Shown here in pieces: positions 1-21,825 of a stretch of 23,585 nucleotides of DNA; position 1 is the first letter of the stretch; the number at the start of each line of letters is the position of its first letter. The stretch lies in the IMG/VR virus record IMGVR_UViG_3300011116_000775, positions 1 to 23,585 of that record. The stretch is one strand, 5' to 3'. Under the pieces are notes generated by a model, which worked only from the letters and a program-made list of their open reading frames with translations, was not told the origin of the DNA and did no database searches. Source of the DNA: a virus. A program made the position numbers and the translations under genes.

Positions 1-3000
1 TACTTTACAGGCAAGGGGTATCAAACTGCCGAAGATGTCTTCGACTTCGTCGAGTCCGGCGCGATGCGTTACAAAGTCAGGCCCGAACAAATGGGCGGGA
101 CAGGAGCCAAGTATGCTCGCAGTATTAGAACGACAGCGTTTGGCCGTGTCATCATGGTCAATGACGTTAACTACTACAACCCCAAAGAAGACAACTTCAA
201 CAATCAGGTCGACCTAAGAGAAGTGCTGCATAGCAGCATACCGCAGCCTGTCATTAGACAGGCCGATGAATATGTTGAACAGTTTTATGCAAGCAAACCC
301 GAGGTCAAGATAGCCCCTGAAGAAAGGGCAAGGGCTGAAGAACTTCTTGCCCCGAAAATTGATTTGGCTAAACAGGCCAAGGCAACCTACGACCAGATGA
401 TATTGAACATCGTCAACAAGACCGATTCCATCGGTCAGATGTTGGCTCCTATCAAAGGCATAAAACGCGCTGCTGAGAAACTGGTTGAAGAAAAGTTTGA
501 AGTAAACAACATCAAAGACTTACTGCGCTCAACGATTGTAGTCACTGACTACAGCCAGTTGCAGGACGTGGTCAACGCAATTAACCAAAACTTTAACATC
601 CTTCGGATCAAGAACCGGTCTGAGAATCCTATCGTTGGGCCAAACGTCCAAACAGAACCGCGCAAGAAATTTGGTGGTTATTCGGATGTGATGATTAACA
701 TCCGTATGCCTAACGGCATCATCGCCGAGATTCAGATTAACTCGCCCGTAATGCTTGCGGCCAAGGACGAACAAGGCCACAAGCTTTACGAAGCGGCGCG
801 GGAACAGCCCGAAGGGTCAGAGCTTTATCGGACTATCTACGAAGCCATGGAAGGCTTTTACGACGCAGCTTTCTTGGCGTTGAATGCTCTAAGGTCCGAG
901 GCACAAACAAGGAAAGCTCGCTCCGACATAGGCGCGGCTCCTTTATCTGGCACAGCCATAGGCGAGAGAGTCTCGCCAGAATCGTCAAGCTTGAAAGAAG
1001 AGCCGTCAGGGAAAACGGCAATCTCTTCGCCTGAAAATGTAGCAATGAATTTAGTCCCTTCCGGGAAAGAATCAGGTACTCGCATCATTGTTCCTCCTAG
1101 TTCCAAGGTTAAATATGCTTTGTCATTCCCGCAAGACGTAACTGACGCACGGCGGGATTTAAAGCTTAAACGGTTAAGACTTACCGCAGCAGGGAAAGCT
1201 TACCCCGGCGCACCCAAGAATGAGCGCATGGTTCTTTCAGCGCCCGGGAAACCAGACTTTGTTACCGGCGATATCACGATAGATGATTGGAAGAATCGAG
1301 TTCAATCGTTACTTAGTGAACAAGAGATTAAGTCTTTTGCAAACTGGTACAGCGAAGTTAACAAGCTGTTTAAACAGTACTTCCCAAAGAACGACCCCAG
1401 TGTTGATAACTACATGGCTGCTTGGCTGGTTGCCAATCAGAACACCGACGTATCAACGGCGATGAAGAACGCTTTGCTTCAGGCAGAACAAATTGGTCGG
1501 AAGATGCCTGAGTCTCAGATGCGCTTAGGTGGTCTTGAGACCGCCACGATTGCCGCACGAAGCGCTATTCGCGGGGTTCCTATCACCGAAGGTGTAGGGA
1601 TCAAGATCTCTGATTTCGTTGACAGTGCGCTTGGAAAGAATACTCGTACTTACTACGGCGATCACGCTGTGGGTGCAGCACCATTTGTGGTTGATATCCA
1701 CACAGCAAGGGATACGGGTCTTGTGGACCCGATCCTTGTCAATCATTTAAAGCGTTTAGGGTACAACGTCCCAGAGGATATCAAGATTGACTTCCCCATG
1801 GGGCCCGGGGAAACGCAATACGAAAACCGTGCCGACTTTGGTCGAGAGATGACCAAGCGTTTAAACGCTGAGAAATGGATGGGCAAGTCCGACTGGAAGC
1901 CTGCCGAGATCCAAGCCATTGGATGGATGGCAATGACACGCCTTACCGCCGATGCGGTAGAAGATACCCGCACAGCTTTGGAAAGAAATCTTCAGCGCAT
2001 CTCGATGGAAGCAGCGCCGGGAGATGGGTCGCCACTGGCTGAGAAGTATGGCGAAGCATTCAGTCAGCTACCGGCTGACAAGCAAGCCGATCTTACTCAG
2101 ACCCTCACAACCATGGCAATCAATGCAGCGCAGCAGATCTCGGGGATCAAGCTGTCATCGATTGTTCACGGCATGGGCGGTTGGCAGCACTTTCAAAATC
2201 CGGCGACCGTGGCCCAAACCTTAGCCACTCCCGAGGGCGCAGAGATTGCTTCAAATGTTATTGGGTATCTGCTTCAGCAAACTGAGGTGTGGAGCAACAA
2301 AGCAAAGCCTTTGACCAAGAACCCGAGAGGGTTTGCGATTGACTTCCTAGAAGCCGCCGATGGAACTACGCTTGCAACTGATGCGGGCATTCTGAACTTC
2401 TGGAACAAGGTTATGGAAGCTGACCCGACTAAGTTGTTTGTCGGTTATCAGCCTATCAAGACCGCAGACAACCGTCATGGCATCCGGGTTCTAGTGAATA
2501 AAGGTGGGAAACAAACGTCAGAAAAAATATTTTCTGCTATCAAAGATAATATTAAAGATATGGTGGTAAAGTCTGGTCTTAAATTGGAGGTCACCGGACA
2601 TGAAGCAGAAATCATCGTCGCAAGAAACGACTGGACCCAAGACAGGGAAGGGCGAGCTTATCTGGAAAGGCTGGTCGACCTCGGAGTCGCAGATCCCGCA
2701 GCCAAACTCGATCCTCTTCGGAGCCAATTTGAGACAGTCTACAAAGAAGGCACGGGAGTCCGATTTGCTAGATCTCCAGAATCTCAAGCAGGACCCAGCG
2801 GAAGCGGCCATGTTGTACTCGGACGAACTCGTAAAGCAGATGCGGCAGAAGTAAAAGGCGTTCATTACGGCAACAAGCTTGTCGATAAACTTTTGGGCAG
2901 TATGTACGGCACCGGGATTCGCGGGGCCGAGCGCCAGCGACTAGCTAAATCGACCGACGAAAGAATTAAAAAGCGCGTCTACTTCTACATTGAGAAGCCT

Positions 3001-6000
3001 GATGGCAAGATGCCCCCGGTTGAGTCTGGGCTAGGCGCGTTTGTTTACACGCAGAACTTCGGGAATATCTTAGCCCCCGGAGACAAAATGTCTGACATGT
3101 TTGCCAAAGCAAACAGAGACTTCAACGACTTTGAATCTTCTGTCGTTAACGCAGGTTATGACGGCTATGCCGTCCCGTCTATGGGCATGATGGTTATCCT
3201 CAACCATGATGTGCCGGTGAACTACGAAGGCACTCGAGACAAAGTTAAATTTGCAAAAGCAGCACAAGAAGGGATACCACCCAACGTGCTGAAGGCTCAG
3301 GCCATGGAGCGTTTAAACGAAGTACAGCCCATGGCAGAACCTAACGGGTTTAACTTGGCCCGTTCACCAGTGACGGCAAAAGCCGGGATGAATGTGCTGA
3401 ATCAGTTTGTCGATGAGGCGCCGACCTTCGGGAAACAAGTTGTTCAGCGCATCCTCGATATGCCCAAGAACAACCGTGCCATGGTCTACAAGTTCCTGAC
3501 ACTGGAGCAACTGGCCGATGTCGGCCAGAACCTCCTGCCCGAACTGAAGGATTACTACGAAACCTTTCAGGACATGACAGGGTATCGGGAAAAACAAATC
3601 TACTACGCTCAGAAGATCGCCGAAAGGTTGGCTAAACTGAAGAACAAATCCCCCGAGATGGTGGAGCGTTTGGCTGACGTGTGTAATGACGCAACCCTCC
3701 TTGGATTTGATCCTGACCCCGCCAAGAAGGCGGTAGGTACGTCCCTACCCATCATGAAACTGAAGGGTGATTGGAACAAGCTAAACCAAGAGGCCAAGGA
3801 TCTCTATGTTGAGATGCGGAACTTCTATGAGAATCGGTTTAACGCCTATCAGGCTATGCTTCAGGATCGCATCGACAAATCGGTGACTGATCCAGCATCG
3901 CGTCAGGCCATCATGGAAAAGTTCCGCAAGATGTTTGAGAGCGCAAGGAACAAGGGTCCTTACTTCCCGCTCTCACGCTTTGGTCAGTATTGGGTCTCCT
4001 TTGAACAGGGTGGCATCAAGAACTTCCGGATGTTTGAAACCTTAGCAGATTCACAGCGGTTTCAGAAAGAGTTGGACTCGCAGGGTGTGCCGCACAACCA
4101 AGGCGTTCGCGGGGATACCATGATCCCTGACGGGATACCGGCGTCTCAGATTCAAGAGATCATCGGGCTAGTCGATACCGCCGGGAATCCCGGAGAGCTT
4201 AAGCAACAGATCTGGAACACCTACATCTCGATGTTGCCTGAAGTCTCAATGAGGAAGCACTTCCTACCTCGTAAAGGCACACCGGGATACAGTAACGATA
4301 TCCTGCGTTCGTTCTCGGAGAACACCTTCCACGGGGCTTATGCCCTAGCGCGTTTAAAGTACGCGCCGGATTTCGATGCTGCTATCGCAGCCATGAAAAA
4401 GCGCGAGAAAGATTTATCCGGCGAGCAAGATTCCGAGAAACGAAGCGAACTCTTGCGTGAAGTCGAAAGCCGCCAACAGTACATCGACAACCCGACAGAT
4501 ACCAACTTCTTCACGAACATGGCAGGCACCATCGGGTTTACATGGTTCCTGACAGCGCCAGCTTCTGCTATCACCAACTTAGCCCAGAACGTCACCGTAG
4601 CTTTCCCGATCCTGTCGGCCAAGTTCGGGACAAACAGCGCCATGCGGGAGATGTCCACGGCGTATAAACAGTTCATGGCAAGCGCCAAGCGCGGTGAAGA
4701 GTCGGTCTTTGATATTCAGCGTACCTTGCAGCAACTCTACAATGAGACCAAGTCTGCCAAGTACAAGCGGGAAATGGACGCCATCAATGCACTGATGGAC
4801 AACGGCACCTTATCTCGTACCCAGACCATGGACCTTGCCCAGCTTTCGGATAAACCCAGCATGGTCGGGACAAGGTTCCACTCAACCATGAAGTATGTGG
4901 GTATGTTGTTCCATGGTGCCGAAGTGATGAACCGAACAACAACGGCACTGTCTGCCTTTAGACTTTCGTATGAGAAACATAAGTCACTAGGCGAAGCCGA
5001 AGCTTATCAACGTGCGCTTAAAGATGCTCGAGAGATCACGCGCAAAGCACACTTTGACTACAGCGCCTCAAACAAACCACCGATCATGCAGGGCAAGACC
5101 GCTCGAGTGATCTTCATGTTTAAACAGTACGGCCAGCATATGGCGTACATGTTGTTGAGAGAAACCCAGTTGTATGGGAAGTACTTGATCGATAAGTATC
5201 GCGGCACACCGATGCAGAAAGAAGCCGAGATCCGGGCTAAAGAAGCCCGGGATACGGTGATCGGGATTCTCTGTACCACCGGGATGTTCTCGGGCGTCTT
5301 CGGGCTTCCTTATCCTTTGTATGTGCTGACCATCACGATTGCTAATGCTTTGTTTGGTGATGATGAGGACGAAGAGTTCGATGCGGAGACACGGTTTAAA
5401 CTGTGGCTGACCGACACGTTAGGGGCTGGTCCTGCGGACATTATCGCCAAGGGTCCTTTGTCTTACCTAACCGGCGCCGATATCTCTGACAGGATTAGTT
5501 CCAACGGTTTAATCTTCCGAGATACCGGTCGACTAGGACCGAGGCAGGCCAAGGATGAAGATCAGGTTGCTGCAACGCAGCAATTCTTGGTAGAGATGGC
5601 CGGACCGATGGGTGGTCTTGCCATGAATATCGGGCAAGGCATCGAGTCATTTAAGAACGGTCAGGTGTACCGTGGCATCGAGAAGATGGTTCCCGCACCG
5701 CTACGCGATGTGATGGAGACTTACCGATACAACACTGAGGGTGTCCTCACCATGAAGGGTGATCCGATCCTTGATGAGGTATCGAGTATGCAATCGTTCG
5801 TCAACCTGATTGGCTTCTCGCCGGTAGAACTCGCTCGGCAGTATGAGGAGAACGCCGCCATCAAGGCGGTCGAGTCGAAGGCAAACATGGAGCGGAAGCG
5901 GATCTTGAACAAGTTTGCTTTGGCAACTAACAACCATGATTTCGATGCGTTAGAAGATGTTGAAGCGGCGATTGAACGATACAACGAAAGATTCCCGAGT

Positions 6001-6141
6001 TACGAAATCACTGGTAAGACTCTTGCCAAGTCTCTCAAGTCGCGGGAAGCCGCGTCAGCGGAGAATGAACACGGCGTCAGGGTTACAAAGAAGCTGGCGG
6101 GGATCGCGGAACGCGCTGGGCAATTAACCGGCACAGAGTAA
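1..6141 (+). CDS. Giant phage polyvalent/internal virion protein, 5' partial (RelA/SpoT-like, ART-like, PLxRFG)
   Basis: The frame is open from base 1, so this is the C-terminal part (2046 codons seen) of a larger protein that starts outside the window. Residues are counted from base 1. Residues 130-265 resemble the RelA/SpoT nucleotide pyrophosphokinase fold: KDLLR with D173, GGYSD at 225-229 and EIQI with E243 match the family's D, GYxSxH and EVQIR motifs. Residues 950-1080 (GVHYGN, H955; AGYDGY from 1051) resemble ART-PolyVal-type ADP-ribosyltransferases. FPLSRFG at 1322-1328 is the PLxRFG motif of large phage polyvalent proteins, followed by the usual C-terminal region with hydrophobic stretches near 1508-1540 and 1753-1780 and an acidic run (DDEDEE). 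Such proteins are thought to be carried in the virion and delivered with the DNA; whether that holds here is inference. The gene ends the rightward late operon and overlaps the tail of the opposing HNH gene by 59 bp. Confidence 0.85.
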   Translation, partial: YFTGKGYQTAEDVFDFVESGAMRYKVRPEQMGGTGAKYARSIRTTAFGRVIMVNDVNYYNPKEDNFNNQVDLREVLHSSIPQPVIRQADEYVEQFYASKPEVKIAPEERARAEELLAPKIDLAKQAKATYDQMILNIVNKTDSIGQMLAPIKGIKRAAEKLVEEKFEVNNIKDLLRSTIVVTDYSQLQDVVNAINQNFNILRIKNRSENPIVGPNVQTEPRKKFGGYSDVMINIRMPNGIIAEIQINSPVMLAAKDEQGHKLYEAAREQPEGSELYRTIYEAMEGFYDAAFLALNALRSEAQTRKARSDIGAAPLSGTAIGERVSPESSSLKEEPSGKTAISSPENVAMNLVPSGKESGTRIIVPPSSKVKYALSFPQDVTDARRDLKLKRLRLTAAGKAYPGAPKNERMVLSAPGKPDFVTGDITIDDWKNRVQSLLSEQEIKSFANWYSEVNKLFKQYFPKNDPSVDNYMAAWLVANQNTDVSTAMKNALLQAEQIGRKMPESQMRLGGLETATIAARSAIRGVPITEGVGIKISDFVDSALGKNTRTYYGDHAVGAAPFVVDIHTARDTGLVDPILVNHLKRLGYNVPEDIKIDFPMGPGETQYENRADFGREMTKRLNAEKWMGKSDWKPAEIQAIGWMAMTRLTADAVEDTRTALERNLQRISMEAAPGDGSPLAEKYGEAFSQLPADKQADLTQTLTTMAINAAQQISGIKLSSIVHGMGGWQHFQNPATVAQTLATPEGAEIASNVIGYLLQQTEVWSNKAKPLTKNPRGFAIDFLEAADGTTLATDAGILNFWNKVMEADPTKLFVGYQPIKTADNRHGIRVLVNKGGKQTSEKIFSAIKDNIKDMVVKSGLKLEVTGHEAEIIVARNDWTQDREGRAYLERLVDLGVADPAAKLDPLRSQFETVYKEGTGVRFARSPESQAGPSGSGHVVLGRTRKADAAEVKGVHYGNKLVDKLLGSMYGTGIRGAERQRLAKSTDERIKKRVYFYIEKPDGKMPPVESGLGAFVYTQNFGNILAPGDKMSDMFAKANRDFNDFESSVVNAGYDGYAVPSMGMMVILNHDVPVNYEGTRDKVKFAKAAQEGIPPNVLKAQAMERLNEVQPMAEPNGFNLARSPVTAKAGMNVLNQFVDEAPTFGKQVVQRILDMPKNNRAMVYKFLTLEQLADVGQNLLPELKDYYETFQDMTGYREKQIYYAQKIAERLAKLKNKSPEMVERLADVCNDATLLGFDPDPAKKAVGTSLPIMKLKGDWNKLNQEAKDLYVEMRNFYENRFNAYQAMLQDRIDKSVTDPASRQAIMEKFRKMFESARNKGPYFPLSRFGQYWVSFEQGGIKNFRMFETLADSQRFQKELDSQGVPHNQGVRGDTMIPDGIPASQIQEIIGLVDTAGNPGELKQQIWNTYISMLPEVSMRKHFLPRKGTPGYSNDILRSFSENTFHGAYALARLKYAPDFDAAIAAMKKREKDLSGEQDSEKRSELLREVESRQQYIDNPTDTNFFTNMAGTIGFTWFLTAPASAITNLAQNVTVAFPILSAKFGTNSAMREMSTAYKQFMASAKRGEESVFDIQRTLQQLYNETKSAKYKREMDAINALMDNGTLSRTQTMDLAQLSDKPSMVGTRFHSTMKYVGMLFHGAEVMNRTTTALSAFRLSYEKHKSLGEAEAYQRALKDAREITRKAHFDYSASNKPPIMQGKTARVIFMFKQYGQHMAYMLLRETQLYGKYLIDKYRGTPMQKEAEIRAKEARDTVIGILCTTGMFSGVFGLPYPLYVLTITIANALFGDDEDEEFDAETRFKLWLTDTLGAGPADIIAKGPLSYLTGADISDRISSNGLIFRDTGRLGPRQAKDEDQVAATQQFLVEMAGPMGGLAMNIGQGIESFKNGQVYRGIEKMVPAPLRDVMETYRYNTEGVLTMKGDPILDEVSSMQSFVNLIGFSPVELARQYEENAAIKAVESKANMERKRILNKFALATNNHDFDALEDVEAAIERYNERFPSYEITGKTLAKSLKSREAASAENEHGVRVTKKLAGIAERAGQLTGTE

Positions 6142-17508: not shown

Positions 17509-17955
17509 TTAAACGCTACTAAGCTTCTTGATTAGTCTCGTGAGGTAGGCTTCGTAAGAAGCTTTTCTCTCTTCAGGCCAAAGCGCAGTGCTCAAATCGT
17601 CCAAGTTTTCGAGCGCGTCATTCAGTTTGATGAGTCTTGCCATAGGCGAAAGCTTCTTTGCTTTGGCGAGCACATATTTTTTCTTGTGCTTCACCCTCTT
17701 AGGGACGGTTAATTCTTTGACCAGATCAGCGACCGTGTCGTTGAAAATATGTCTAAGCGTTTTGACGGTCATGTTCGTGTCTTCGACCACGTCATGCAGG
17801 ATCGCGGCCATGATGACGTTGTCATCATTGGTGTAAGCACTCACTCTGTTTGCAACGCTTAGGGGATGCATAACGTATGGTGTCTTGCCGTCAGCCCTCG
17901 TTGCTCTACCGTGGGCTGCAACTGCAACGAAGCAGGCTGTGAGAATGTTAGCCAT
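17509..17955 (-). CDS. SpoT/MESH1-type HD alarmone hydrolase
   Basis: The 148-aa protein is a stand-alone HD hydrolase of the RelA/SpoT type. Motifs in order: AAHGRATRADGKTPYVMHPL (H30 in the YxxHP motif), AAILHDVVEDT (H54-D55, E58-D59), FNDTVADLVKELT and RLIKLNDALENL (D113), matching RelSeq H53, H77-D78 and D144. Small alarmone hydrolases of this kind remove the 3'-pyrophosphate of (p)ppGpp or related alarmones, and phage-borne ones are known to neutralise toxic alarmone synthetases. The ATG at 17955 with AAAGGA upstream is preferred over 17991, which would overlap the preceding gene and hairpin. The stop TAA lies in a GTTTAAAC site (17507-17514). Confidence 0.85.
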   Translation of the reverse strand: MANILTACFVAVAAHGRATRADGKTPYVMHPLSVANRVSAYTNDDNVIMAAILHDVVEDTNMTVKTLRHIFNDTVADLVKELTVPKRVKHKKKYVLAKAKKLSPMARLIKLNDALENLDDLSTALWPEERKASYEAYLTRLIKKLSSV

Positions 17956-17987: not shown

Positions 17988-19472
17988 TCATGCGGCAAGT
18001 TTGATTTGGTTGAGAGCAACCGTGGCAAGGTCCGAGATCTTGTCGACGCGGACCGAGTTGGGACCGTAAACAGCTTGCACGTCATACCCGATGCCGACCC
18101 CAATCGTCGGGATGCCGAGGCGCTCGCCAGACTTGACCTGAGCGGTGACTGATGCAGGGCTGTGACCCTCGCCGTCAGTGAAGGCAAAGACCACGCGCCG
18201 GGATTCCGACCGACTACGCAGAAGCTTTTGTGCAAAGCACAAAGCGTCATAGTCATAGGTGCTACCGCACGGCTCGAGCTTGCGAAGCTTCGGGACGAAG
18301 CGCTTCCACGGCTCGTTGAAGGTCTTCAGCATCGAGGTGCTGCCAGCGAAGCCAACCACGGCGGTCGGCACGTTAGCGGCTGCTAAGGAAGCACCGACTG
18401 CGTACACCGCCGAGACCAACGGGCTGATGGTGGACTCCATCGAAGACGACAGGTCGACCAGCAAGACAACCGCAGAGTCGATGCCCTCGTCGTCATAGCG
18501 GCGTTTAAACACGTTGCCCGAGGTCTGGTAAACCGCGAGGCGGTTGCTGTTGATGGTGCCGCTACGATAGCCAGCTTCCCAACCGTAGTGATCGGTCTTC
18601 TCGAAAAGCTTACGCACGTCAAAGCGAAGGCGACCGCTGACATTCGTATCAACGAAATTGTTGCGACTGTCATTGATGAAGGCGCTTTCCTTGACAACCT
18701 TCTCGCGCCGACCGCTCGGGAGCGTACCCGCCGAGGTCTCGAACTGCGGCTCGATGGGGACGCCGCCGTCATTTTGGTCGAAGTCGGCAGGGATGGGACC
18801 GAGGTCATTCGACGGGTCACCATTCGATGGGTCACCGCTCGATGGGTCACCATTGGACGGCGCCGGGGAATCCTCCGGAGGAGGCAGGCGAAGCTGGTCA
18901 ACAATCCACTTAGCAATCACCATGTTGTCACCAGACCCCGTCGAAGCTTTGATCATGGGCATCGCAGCAGCGAAGATAGGGTTTAAACGTGGGGACCAGT
19001 CGCTATGCAGTCCACGACCGAAGCACACAAGTGCAAAGGCGATGTTGTGCGGGTTGGTCCAGTCGACGGGAGACGAAGACATGCAGTGCTCGCCTAGCTC
19101 GTGGAACAGTTCGCCCGAACCCGGGATCAGGTTGGATTTGACGATCTCGCCTTCCATCCAGATATCCTCAACCGCGTTATGCATACGCGACAGGAAGGCA
19201 TCGGTGAAGAAGTACTGAGGACCGAACTTGGAGAAGATGACGTGGCCGAGTTCATGGAGGGCGAAAGCCTGAAGCCTGCGGAACTCGTCATGAGGGATGA
19301 CGGCGTCATCGAGGAAGTTAGGAAGGGTAATGACCGTGCCATCGGTATAGGCCCCATCCCCGCACCAGCGGATGGGGTTCCAACGATCATTACCCGGGCG
19401 AAAGAGGGACCGAGCGCGACGAATCGTATGGTCGATGGCATCGCGCACCTCGTAACCTTTGAAAGATTTCAT
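17988..19472 (-). CDS. CobT-like VWA-domain protein with HExxH motif
   Basis: The 494-aa protein has two parts. The N-terminal part carries FALHELGHVIFSKFG (H73-E74-x-x-H77) followed by HNAVEDIWMEGEI (E102, D103, E107), a metal-site pattern like that of zincin-type peptidases and of CobT-like proteins. A low-complexity acidic linker (about 196-240, with three PSNGD-type repeats) leads to a C-terminal von Willebrand A domain with a full MIDAS: DLSSS (340-344), T405 and FTDGEG (D433). VWA proteins of this class work with MoxR/CobS AAA+ ATPases, and one is encoded directly upstream with ATGA overlap at 19469-19472. Metal-chelation-type cobalamin synthesis is unlikely in a phage; protein remodelling or proteolysis is more plausible, by inference. 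Confidence 0.8.
   Translation of the reverse strand: MKSFKGYEVRDAIDHTIRRARSLFRPGNDRWNPIRWCGDGAYTDGTVITLPNFLDDAVIPHDEFRRLQAFALHELGHVIFSKFGPQYFFTDAFLSRMHNAVEDIWMEGEIVKSNLIPGSGELFHELGEHCMSSSPVDWTNPHNIAFALVCFGRGLHSDWSPRLNPIFAAAMPMIKASTGSGDNMVIAKWIVDQLRLPPPEDSPAPSNGDPSSGDPSNGDPSNDLGPIPADFDQNDGGVPIEPQFETSAGTLPSGRREKVVKESAFINDSRNNFVDTNVSGRLRFDVRKLFEKTDHYGWEAGYRSGTINSNRLAVYQTSGNVFKRRYDDEGIDSAVVLLVDLSSSMESTISPLVSAVYAVGASLAAANVPTAVVGFAGSTSMLKTFNEPWKRFVPKLRKLEPCGSTYDYDALCFAQKLLRSRSESRRVVFAFTDGEGHSPASVTAQVKSGERLGIPTIGVGIGYDVQAVYGPNSVRVDKISDLATVALNQIKLAA
18811..18855 (-). repeat. Three tandem 15-bp units in the VWA gene linker
   Basis: GAYGGGTCACC-based units at 18811-18825, 18826-18840 and 18841-18855 encode repeated GDPSN/GDPSS peptides in the linker between metalloprotease-like and VWA parts. 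Copy number may vary between relatives. Confidence 0.75.
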
Positions 19473-20713
19473 GGTTTCACCTGAGAGAAAAGAAGATGAC
19501 CCCAATCAACCGGGGCAACGTACTGATCGAAAATGGTCTGAAGCTGCGCCGCACTCTCGGGCGGCTGCTTGTTGACCACGGTCGACCTCCAAGCTGACCG
19601 CAACGGCAGGCCAGCAGTCAAGACCTCGACGAAGGCAAAAGCATTACGCAAGGTCGGTGCATCAACCAGAAGGCCCTTGCCCGTATCGACCCGGGCGATG
19701 TTCCAGATCTTGACCACGGCATCGGCCAATGGTTTGGGGCAACCCGTGTTGCCGCAGATAACGCGAGCCTCGGAGACAGGGTCCAACCACGTCACGGTCT
19801 CCATGAAAGCGTAGCGGTCGATGAGCGCAGCGTTCTGCGCCGTGGTCCCGACGAAGCGTCCGGTGCTATCCGACTGACCGACCGTGTTGTCACAAGCAAC
19901 GACCATGACGCCGGGAGCGCGTGAGTACACGTTCGGCCCGGAGGTCACCGAGCATCCTGGCTCGAGCCAAGCGTTAAGTTGGGCGATCAACTCGGGGCGA
20001 CCGTTGGTAGGCTCATCCAGCAGGATGATCGCACCGGGATGTTTAAACCCGGTGGTGAAGGCAGTCTCCTGCCAGACACTGTTGCCAGCGTCCAGACCCC
20101 AACAACCGAAGAGTTCAGAAGCATCGGTGCCGCGATGGAAGTTGACCCGGAAAAGCTTGCGACCCGTGGCAGCAGCAAACTGCGTGACTGCGGAGGTCTT
20201 GCCGGTTGAGCGATCACCGGTCAGCCAACCGTTTAAACCGGCCTTCTGAGCGACGATCAGGTGATGGAGAACATTCTCCTGCCAGACATAGTTTGGATCG
20301 ATCTTAGGCGCTTCTGGATCGCCGTAGACGTCAACGCGCAGCAGATTACCACCGGCGTTGTAGAGGTCGATGCCGAACACCTCGCGGACGGTCTTGGATT
20401 CGACCGCCGGGGCTGCTGCACGGGCAACCTCGGGCTTTGCAGTGATCGCCGTCTCGAGGGGTTTGATGAGCGCTGCCACGGCCTTGGAAATCTCGGCACG
20501 AATGACAGAGTCATCAACCACGGGCGCGGCGGGAACAACCAGCGGAGCGGCTGGCTTGCCTGCGATAGCATCAAGATCGAACACCGTATTGATGCCATGA
20601 GCCATCAGCGCCGAGACAAGGTCAGCCTTGTAGTTGGGACCGGGGGCGATGTTTAAACCAAGGACCCGGGCCGCAGGCTCAAGCTTTGAGACAGGGCAAA
20701 GTAGAAGTGACAT
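19469..20713 (-). CDS. MoxR/CobS-type AAA+ ATPase
   Basis: The 414-aa protein has an N-terminal region with a SAP-like or helix-extension-helix segment (about 16-50, YKADLVSALMAHG) and an Ala/Pro-rich linker (50-105). The AAA+ core follows: Walker A GDRSTGKT (166-173), Walker B IILLDE (229-234), sensor 1 VVACDNT, and an arginine finger region LIDRYAF (R300). GTDASELFGCW is the typical MoxR/CobS loop. It would hydrolyse ATP to remodel a target together with the VWA protein encoded next. The start has GGAG seven bases upstream. GTTTAAAC occurs three times in the gene (20041, 20231, 20651). Confidence 0.88.
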   Translation of the reverse strand: MSLLLCPVSKLEPAARVLGLNIAPGPNYKADLVSALMAHGINTVFDLDAIAGKPAAPLVVPAAPVVDDSVIRAEISKAVAALIKPLETAITAKPEVARAAAPAVESKTVREVFGIDLYNAGGNLLRVDVYGDPEAPKIDPNYVWQENVLHHLIVAQKAGLNGWLTGDRSTGKTSAVTQFAAATGRKLFRVNFHRGTDASELFGCWGLDAGNSVWQETAFTTGFKHPGAIILLDEPTNGRPELIAQLNAWLEPGCSVTSGPNVYSRAPGVMVVACDNTVGQSDSTGRFVGTTAQNAALIDRYAFMETVTWLDPVSEARVICGNTGCPKPLADAVVKIWNIARVDTGKGLLVDAPTLRNAFAFVEVLTAGLPLRSAWRSTVVNKQPPESAAQLQTIFDQYVAPVDWGHLLFSQVKP

Positions 20714-20717
20714 AGCG

Positions 20718-21305
20718 TTACTCCAAAGTCATGGGGAGAGGTGAGTGCGAAGGAACCGCACACAAGGGCATCGCAATTGATGCCCACTTGGCAGTCAGAC
20801 GCACTGAATAGCCGCAGGCAGAGCAAACTGCCTTGAGCATTCGGGTCGACTGCTTTTTGGTCGACAGGACCAGTGAAGCGTGAGGGTAAGGACCGAGGTC
20901 CGCAATCCACGGGCGAATCGTTGCCTTGAAGGCATCGGAACCGACCGTCGAGCGCATCGGGCCAGTGAGGCCGATGGCGTGAGCGATGGCGCGAAACTTG
21001 GGGCCATGCCCCTCGTGTACCCCGACCGCCGCATGGCAGAGTTCGTGAGCCAGAACTTCCATGACGCGCATCGGGTCCGAAAGCTCAGGGTGAATGTAAA
21101 TCTCGACGTGGGCGTCAGCCGAATTAGAGGCGGCGTGACATTCACCGACACGCATCGAGGTCTTGTTTTTGGAGCGCGTACCGCCGGTCGAGGGAAACCC
21201 GCAGGAAACCCGGAAGGACGGGAGCGGGAGGGAGTTGAGAGCAAAGAGACCGCCGAGTTCAGCGGCGGCGGCGTTGAGCCACGCCTCACGAAGTGCAATT
21301 GACAT
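20718..21305 (-). CDS. SprT-like zinc metalloprotease
   Basis: The 195-aa protein has the SprT/Spartan core VLAHELCHAAVGVHEGHGPK with HELCH at 87-91 and a third metal ligand at H100, followed by FRAIAHAIGL. A C-terminal zinc ribbon is partial: C161xxC164 and C182, with H187 perhaps as fourth ligand. SprT-like proteases cut DNA-protein crosslinks in other systems; phage copies are widespread but unproven. The ATG at 21305 has GGAG at the right spacing; a TTG two codons earlier is less likely. Only four bases separate it from the AAA+ gene, forming a three-gene set with VWA. Confidence 0.85.
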   Translation of the reverse strand: MSIALREAWLNAAAAELGGLFALNSLPLPSFRVSCGFPSTGGTRSKNKTSMRVGECHAASNSADAHVEIYIHPELSDPMRVMEVLAHELCHAAVGVHEGHGPKFRAIAHAIGLTGPMRSTVGSDAFKATIRPWIADLGPYPHASLVLSTKKQSTRMLKAVCSACGYSVRLTAKWASIAMPLCAVPSHSPLPMTLE

Positions 21306-21307
21306 GA

Positions 21308-21454
21308 TCAATCTCCGATGGAAAGGATGCCCAAAGCGAGGGCAGACAAGAGCAAGACCATCGCAAAGTCAGTGAACCCGACCAGCGCCGTAGGCACCGC
21401 AGCGGCAAGTGCAGCCGCAGACAAGTACCCGAAAGCTTTAAGTACAGTTTTCAT
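21308..21454 (-). CDS. Small two-helix membrane protein (48 aa)
   Basis: MKTVLKAFGYLSAAALAAAV, then PTALVGFTDFAMVLLLSALA and LGILSIGD. Two hydrophobic helices (about 6-25 and 30-46) with a short polar turn and a positive N-terminus indicate an inner-membrane protein. A strong GGAGG lies four bases before the ATG. The stop is two bases from the SprT start, so it is co-translated with it. It may be holin-like, a membrane anchor, or an inhibitor of a host membrane function; no family recognised. Confidence 0.65.
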   Translation of the reverse strand: MKTVLKAFGYLSAAALAAAVPTALVGFTDFAMVLLLSALALGILSIGD

Positions 21455-21502: not shown

Positions 21503-21520
21503 AGCACGTTTAAACGTGCT
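21503..21520. promoter_or_regulatory. 18-bp perfect palindrome centred on GTTTAAAC
   Basis: AGCACGTTTAAACGTGCT in the 110-bp gap between two leftward genes. It is the most extended copy of the iterated motif and can form a 9-bp-arm cruciform or RNA hairpin. A second hairpin (GCGCT/AGCGC, 21479-21495) lies beside it. Confidence 0.6.
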
Positions 21521-21564: not shown

Positions 21565-21825
21565 CTAGCAATCTGCAAGCGCGTTTAAACGCTTTTCGAT
21601 GATCTTTTTGTTTTCACCTTGCTCGACAACCCGATAGGTCAGCCGACTGAGCGAAGCGATAAGCTCGGCGGCGCTCATCCTGTTGGGATGACCCGCGATG
21701 CCGCCGCTCACAACCCTGCGGACAAAGTACCCGTTGACGATTTCGATGGTGCAAGGGCTACCTTTCGCGGTGTACCAAGCATTTTTGTAAGCCTCAGCAA
21801 GAAGTTTTTTTGTTTCAGTATCCAT
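21565..21825 (-). CDS. Hypothetical protein (86 aa)
   Basis: GGAGG lies before the ATG at 21825. MDTETKKLLAEAYKNAWYTA, a beta strand pair IEIVNGYFVRRVVSGG, and helix NRMSAAELIASLSRL; the end is basic. Unknown family. GTTTAAAC at 21583-21590 is inside. It overlaps the gene upstream by 11 bases. Confidence 0.6.
   Translation of the reverse strand: MDTETKKLLAEAYKNAWYTAKGSPCTIEIVNGYFVRRVVSGGIAGHPNRMSAAELIASLSRLTYRVVEQGENKKIIEKRLNALADC

Follow-up and report, generated by a model that had tools for sequence, protein, structure and literature searches.

A viral SprT-AAA+-VWA gene cassette with a conserved putative metallopeptidase site and a SprT zinc ribbon that co-occurs with a dispersed DNA word

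In MoxR/VWA pairs, the AAA+ protein is established as a motor and the VWA protein as its co-chaperone. A MoxR-clade AAA+ protein encoded beside a VWA protein whose N-terminal part is a metallopeptidase domain has been described in group 2.2 jumbo phages, where a role in virion processing was proposed (Iyer et al. 2021, PMC7824862). The RavA-ViaA, MoxR-VWA and bpMoxR ternary systems likewise combine a MoxR motor with a VWA co-chaperone, and metallopeptidase effectors are described as rare there (PMC7159879). Homologous pairs in phages and haloviruses (phrog_249, phrog_1576 and phrog_5298) are labelled CobS/CobT (PMC8651126), and claims for phage cobST have been made in three reports (PMC8651126, PMC11288001 and PMC11705849), the latter two with vitamin B12 readings. 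Here we analysed a 23,585-base virus record of an uncultivated phage from IMG/VR (the window, meaning this whole stretch), in which genes for a SprT-like protein, a MoxR/CobS-type AAA+ ATPase and a VWA protein are packed on the minus strand. We found that these three genes form a conserved viral cassette, in which the VWA protein keeps a putative metallopeptidase site, the SprT active site is often lost and the SprT zinc ribbon is kept, and that the ribbon co-occurs with the DNA word GTTTA(A/C)AC.

The AAA+/metallopeptidase-VWA pair as such is already known (PMC7824862), but that report names no SprT, whereas here a SprT-like protein is the constant third member, often catalytically dead, in another set of phages. 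The phage and haloviral "CobS/CobT" pairs, in which the HExxH...ED signature of the window protein recurs in T5S1, CRP-810, Mae-Yong1326-1, a Klebsiella phage, RHEph10 and the "peptidase" of S-CAM9 and P-SSM7, differ from the cassette in having neither a SprT neighbour nor the GTTTA(A/C)AC motif. The SprT-like proteases of actinophages and proteophages (phrog_6361; SprT/Spartan/Wss1, PF10263) are about 33-47% identical for most and share a zincin with a C-terminal ribbon, but they stand alone, with HExxH intact in the isolates read and no AAA+/VWA partner. We know of no SprT-like subunit in RavA-ViaA, MoxR-VWA or bpMoxR systems. The core features of the window are as follows.

20718 to 21305, minus strand: SprT-like protein, 195 residues, ATG start; N-terminal HELCH and C-terminal zinc ribbon CSACGYSVRLTAKW...C; PF10263 E=1.4e-8, phrog_6361 E=1.4e-38
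19469 to 20713, minus strand: MoxR/CobS-type AAA+ ATPase, 414 residues; Walker A GDRSTGKTS, Walker B ILLDE; PF07728 E=5e-13, phrog_249 E=2e-32, TIGR01650 weak
17988 to 19472, minus strand: VWA protein, 494 residues; N-terminal gluzincin-like domain (residues about 1-200) with HELGH...HNAVEDIWME, linker and C-terminal VWA domain with metal-ion-dependent adhesion site (MIDAS) DLSSS; PF13519 E=3e-9, CobT_C E=1e-4
18828 to 19472, minus strand: predicted metallopeptidase domain of the VWA protein, its first 215 residues; H73, E74, H77, E102 and D103 invariant in 64 relatives

The SprT-like protein, whose HExxH reads HELCH, scored 35.0 bits against a PF10263 gathering score of 25.6. The ATPase fell in AAA_5 and phrog_249 (labelled "porphyrin biosynthesis", that is, CobS) and the VWA protein in VWA_2, CobT_C, phrog_1576 and phrog_5298; bpMoxR was a weak Pfam match.

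No near DNA match to the window was found among 50,697 phage genomes, and viral contigs searched with the single VWA or AAA+ protein of the window gave no match, so that profiles were required. A profile scan with the VWA protein, in which HExxH was among the search patterns, returned 80 loci, and a second scan by the AAA+ protein alone, blind to the SprT and VWA genes, yielded 308 relatives, of which the best 80 were used. The order SprT-AAA+-VWA was found in about 100 other viral loci at protein identities of 30-55%, which argues that the cluster is not due to chance. In about 22 of the 80 VWA-scan loci, the three genes shared a strand and either overlapped or stood very close together, between terminase genes on the opposite strand and a primase-helicase. 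Under a strict rule, SprT adjoined the AAA+ gene upstream in 77 of the 79 AAA-selected loci with 700 bases upstream, and in the remaining two it was present, overlapping a long reading frame. In the window, Walker A and B of the ATPase are intact and the VWA gene adjoins; the AAA+ protein was conserved throughout the cassette loci, and MIDAS D-x-S-x-S was present in every one of them covering that region. The closest relative (L175) carries all three core genes, with identities of 54% for AAA+, 65% for SprT and 40% for VWA. The conserved unit thus comprises three genes, SprT-AAA+-VWA. Some phages carry the AAA+/VWA pair without SprT and others a SprT of this kind without the pair. In the phages examined, the pair or cassette adjoins replication genes; outside the relatives of the window, the pair's neighbours include genes for DNA polymerase III alpha, a sliding clamp, a ligase or a primase. 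A MoxR-type motor with a metallopeptidase-bearing VWA partner, as a unit linked to DNA transactions, had been proposed in a sequence-only reading of the locus and was supported here.

Because the VWA scan patterns themselves contained HExxH, its conservation in that set was not taken as proof, and the AAA-selected loci, which are free of this bias, were used instead. Among AAA+ loci whose downstream sequence was long enough, HExxH...ED was present in 99/99, as part of the VWA protein or encoded by its own gene directly before the VWA gene; cassette loci that appeared to have no HExxH turned out to be split genes. Across 64 diverse relatives, the five residues listed above were the only invariant ones in the N-terminal domain. 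The predicted model of this domain had a mean predicted local distance difference test (pLDDT) score of 89.7. Foldseek returned no significant match to it, and VIA structural alignment ranked M1 aminopeptidases, selecase/minigluzincins, an M48-like peptidase, thermolysin (M4) and Wss1 best, with Z-scores of 4.5-6.2 that are modest and in a range possible for common arrangements. These scores gain weight because the matches are zinc peptidases and the motif fits, so that the call combines fold and motif. The N-terminal domain of the VWA protein thus fits a gluzincin-like peptidase fold in the predicted model, with a putative peptidase activity. Chromosomal homologues in Dehalococcoidia are degenerate, an exception to the motif conservation.

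The SprT-like protein followed a different course. Its four catalytic positions were intact in 67 of the 101 cassette loci and broken in 34, the broken forms including AMLCH, AQLCR, IQLCL, TQLSV, HELCR...R and deletions, while the three zinc-ribbon cysteines were kept in 100/101. Mapped on the AAA+ protein tree, the losses required at least 3 changes and most simply about 8. The ratio of nonsynonymous to synonymous substitution rates (dN/dS) between dead SprT genes was 0.04-0.19, similar to that of intact ones and indicating purifying selection. Since dead genes are under purifying selection with the ribbon kept, SprT is retained in the cassette for something besides its own proteolysis. The active site was intact in 47/47 standalone SprT proteins, which is weak evidence because these matches had been ordered by their similarity to a query with the site intact; within the sets examined, loss was seen only where the motor was present, with the same bias in the standalone set. 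The "two metal sites" of the sequence-only reading are accordingly not both fixed features: the VWA HExxH is constant, whereas the SprT site is dispensable. The survey of gene neighbours gave a similarly divided answer, in that the three core genes stay together and the VWA HExxH is always kept in the cassette, but a third of the loci have lost the SprT HExxH.

The window contains 25 copies of GTTTAAAC, against 0.31 expected from shuffles, distributed as follows.

21508 to 21515, no strand assigned: copy of GTTTAAAC located 53 bp before the operon (small membrane protein, SprT, AAA+ and VWA)
21583 to 21590, no strand assigned: copy of GTTTAAAC located 128 bp before the operon
20041 to 20048, no strand assigned: GTTTAAAC site, one of the 25
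1368, 1859, 3311, 5118, 5394, 6429, 7072, 9393, 10001, 11134, 12732, 14169, 14474, 17200, 17451, 17507, 18503, 18981, 20231, 20651, 22177 and 23556: the other 22 GTTTAAAC sites

One-mismatch forms stood at background level in the window, and the consensus extends to YGTTTAAACR, with Y and R as flanks in relatives. The density of GTTTAAAC was 0.8-1.1 per kb in SprT loci compared with 0.005 in CobST-only loci, and the next commonest 8-base palindrome in cassette loci was about eight times rarer. A host origin of the word was considered and rejected: a Burkholderiales metagenome-assembled genome with a cassette contig was not enriched (68 copies in 3 Mb; reversed control 109).

A scan by DNA alone, for two close copies of the word, gave 120 stretches. 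This SprT was encoded by 23 of 38 word-rich records and, among the word-poor ones, by 1 of 40 (Fisher p=9e-9). Counted in the 23 are two contigs with stand-alone 60-residue proteins that correspond to the SprT C-terminal ribbon alone (L325, at 3173; L329, at 2211), carrying 24 copies of GTTTAAAC in 7.3 kb and 19 in 6.9 kb, respectively. Arthrobacter phage JasmineDragon (L413) has this SprT and no GTTTAAAC; its top over-represented word was GTTTACAC (20 copies against 0.1 expected), which is also present in Microbacterium phage Caron (17) and Streptomyces phage Crosby (37). A second over-represented word in JasmineDragon was TTCACGTGAA, with 6 copies of the 10-mer. We then counted GTTTAMAC (M, A or C) in whole genomes of isolates with the ribbon signature KQxTR...Y..R...KW, which is looser in Venkman. 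The word was enriched in 10/10 of these isolates, with 4 to about 40 sites against 0-1 for the reversed control, and in 0/4 isolates whose ribbon is missing or of another type (MW2, Epa5, Bachaco and Cece; 0-1 sites). The window and Jasmine records are not independent tests, because the word was found by chance in the former and its C variant in the latter; the other records are independent. Several isolates have a copy of the word 15-73 bp ahead of SprT. In Mano, Persinger, Mica and ECO1230-10, where there are only 4-7 sites, one precedes the SprT start by 15-19 bp, and in Jasmine and Caron a site precedes it by 37-38 bp. Methylophilales phage Venkman (L414) has 34 GTTTAAAC sites, of which about 30 fall within the first 15 kb, and at several gene junctions of a minus-strand block the word stands directly between a stop codon and the next ATG.

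Two further genes adjoin the cassette in the window.

21308 to 21454, minus strand: hydrophobic two-helix protein, 48 residues, opening the cluster; an accessory protein that is not conserved
17509 to 17955, minus strand: HD protein, a MESH1/SpoT-like small alarmone hydrolase; PF13328; PDB 3nqw E=1e-19, 5vxa

All four genes of the cluster had been described with these coordinates and motifs, separated by 2 bases, 4 bases and an ATGA overlap, with the HD gene 32 bases on, and all of this was confirmed. The proposal that the four act together was supported for SprT, AAA+ and VWA and not supported for the membrane protein, which is absent in L175; small hydrophobic open reading frames of similar size were found near only about 15 of the 101 cassette loci. 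The HD gene, an alarmone hydrolase with no homologue beside the cassette in L175, is probably not part of the unit. At the other end of the window (1 to 6141), a cut-off giant polyvalent protein (DarB-like; phrog_10089 E=1e-113; LPD39) has, near its visible start, a weak RelA_SpoT-like domain below cut-off (PF04607 E=6e-4), which could form a synthetase/hydrolase pair with the HD protein in one phage. PADLOC gave weak matches only, none a defence assignment, the Rfam search gave no match and the promoter scan detected no promoter.

Considering these results together, we propose, at roughly even odds (about 0.5), that the cassette is an ATP-driven protein-remodelling and cleaving machine steered to DNA. 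By analogy with other MoxR/VWA systems, the AAA+ protein would be the motor and the VWA protein its co-chaperone, with the VWA domain gripping a target peptide and the HExxH...ED domain acting as the constant, putative blade. The SprT-like protein would be the targeting subunit, its ribbon a candidate reader of GTTTA(A/C)AC as suggested by their co-occurrence, and its own protease site is optional, having been lost several times. Given the gene context and the sites near gene starts in some isolates, the machine may act, while the phage replicates or transcribes its early genes, on proteins that sit on marked phage DNA or close to it, with RNA polymerase, repressors, host nucleoid proteins and crosslinked proteins as candidate targets; as first suggested, it may remove proteins from DNA. 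A complex of the proteins, binding of the ribbon to DNA, proteolysis and the nature of the target are all predictions of this proposal. More tentatively, phage SprT-like proteins may be sequence-specific DNA binders whose ribbon reads GTTTA(A/C)AC spread through their own genome, and which in one large phage group would deliver an AAA+/VWA metallopeptidase to these sites, the SprT protease decaying to a pure adaptor in a form of site-addressed proteolysis.

Several observations weigh against this proposal. The word linkage is co-occurrence, and related phages are not independent points: apparent kin among the positive isolates are Mano, Persinger, Mica and ECO1230-10, then Pan1 and R5C, then Jasmine and Caron, leaving about five independent lineages with both word and ribbon. 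When one shared gene of any kind sufficed to group contigs, almost all of them fell together, and a stricter rule was adopted. Within the window 19 of the 25 sites lie wholly inside genes, no enrichment was seen directly upstream of SprT in cassette loci (7 observed, 11 expected), and no SprT was seen on 15 of the 38 word-rich contigs, most of these being fragments. Phages with a standalone SprT carry the word in the absence of AAA+/VWA, and therefore recognition of the motif would need no motor. On the side of the blade, the structural Z-scores are modest, and Pseudomonas phage nickie (L291, 2318 to 4402) encodes a CobT-like protein without HExxH, the motif being lost (GFLDSEISKVLY) and the CobS-like gene retained.

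The presence of SprT and word without the pair in many phages, and the autoregulated operator suggested by sites 15-19 or 37-38 bp before SprT, would also suit a SprT-like protein that regulates transcription on its own through dispersed operators, with the AAA+/VWA-peptidase pair sharing its operon and having another target. We hold this to be rather unlikely, since SprT lies directly upstream of this AAA+ type in nearly all loci across wide divergence, and the loss of its site only with the motor present, biased as the standalone set is, suggests a division of labour. Somewhat less probable still is a role in virion assembly or maturation, in which the MoxR AAA+ and metallopeptidase-VWA proteins fold and trim structural proteins and SprT is a second protease. 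This role has been proposed for the jumbo phage pair, taking the tail-assembly MoxR-VWA of the archaeal virus ATV as precedent (PMC7824862), and terminase genes are upstream neighbours in relatives of the window. However, cassette and terminase genes lie on opposite strands in these relatives, the pair elsewhere stands beside replication rather than structural genes, and the word linkage is left unexplained; the replication-gene context favours a role in replication or early transcription. That context, the membership of SprT in its family and the Wss1 structure among the fold matches would fit DNA-protein crosslink repair, with a Spartan/Wss1-like SprT and the VWA peptidase degrading crosslinked proteins unfolded by the AAA+ protein, as SPRTN does with p97. 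We regard this as very unlikely, because the SprT protease is dispensable within the cassette and crosslinks are not sequence specific, so that the site linkage would go unexplained.

The usual annotation, a cobaltochelatase CobS and CobT working with host CobN on vitamin B12, draws on the published cobST claims cited above and on a real sequence relation (TIGR01650, CobT_C), the AAA+/VWA motor pair being common to both. The profile of the phage peptidase domain also matched the N-terminus of true CobT in the CobNST structures (PDB 21vu E=0.004; 9uka E=0.08), a distant relation. However, the aligned CobT stretch has no HExxH, and the motif was absent from all 24 CobT proteins of alphaproteobacterial genomes, 23 of which include the region. 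The window proteins fell far under the equivalog cut-offs (AAA+ against TIGR01650, 46.6 of 558.6 bits; VWA against TIGR01651, 15.1 of 759 bits). CobN (PF02514), the partner in CobNST, was found in none of 39 related viral records, a search that lay outside the window record, itself a fragment, and that leaves a host CobN possible. We consider this explanation the least credible of those weighed here. Judged from sequence, the phage "CobT" is a relative of CobT, and either the phage proteins kept a peptidase site or CobT lost one. A Rhizobiales chromosome encodes a CobT-like VWA protein (L257, 7177 to 9033) with HEVLGH, one residue longer than HExxH and distinct from the true CobT of that genome (L265).

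Because the VWA protein keeps an HExxH...ED site that true CobT is without, calling these phage pairs "CobST, vitamin B12 gene" is probably a mislabelling. The peptidase-site results support the jumbo phage description (PMC7824862) and speak against the view of "peptidase" as a misannotation of phage cobT (PMC8651126) and against the B12 readings (PMC11288001, PMC11705849). The three-gene cassette with an often dead SprT, its ribbon-GTTTA(A/C)AC link, and the GTTTAAAC and GTTTACAC words in connection with phages were not found in the open-access literature searched, an absence that is not proof of novelty. Phage "cobST" has been widely reported as B12 auxiliary genes; the kept peptidase site argues for proteolytic machines, and ecological claims built on the cobST label therefore need review. 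The linkage to GTTTA(A/C)AC makes the unexplained "SprT-like protease" of Escherichia, Streptomyces, Arthrobacter and Microbacterium phages testable by a binding assay. SprT itself offers a rare natural experiment, in which the active site was lost repeatedly while the protein was kept, pointing to the zinc ribbon as its useful part.

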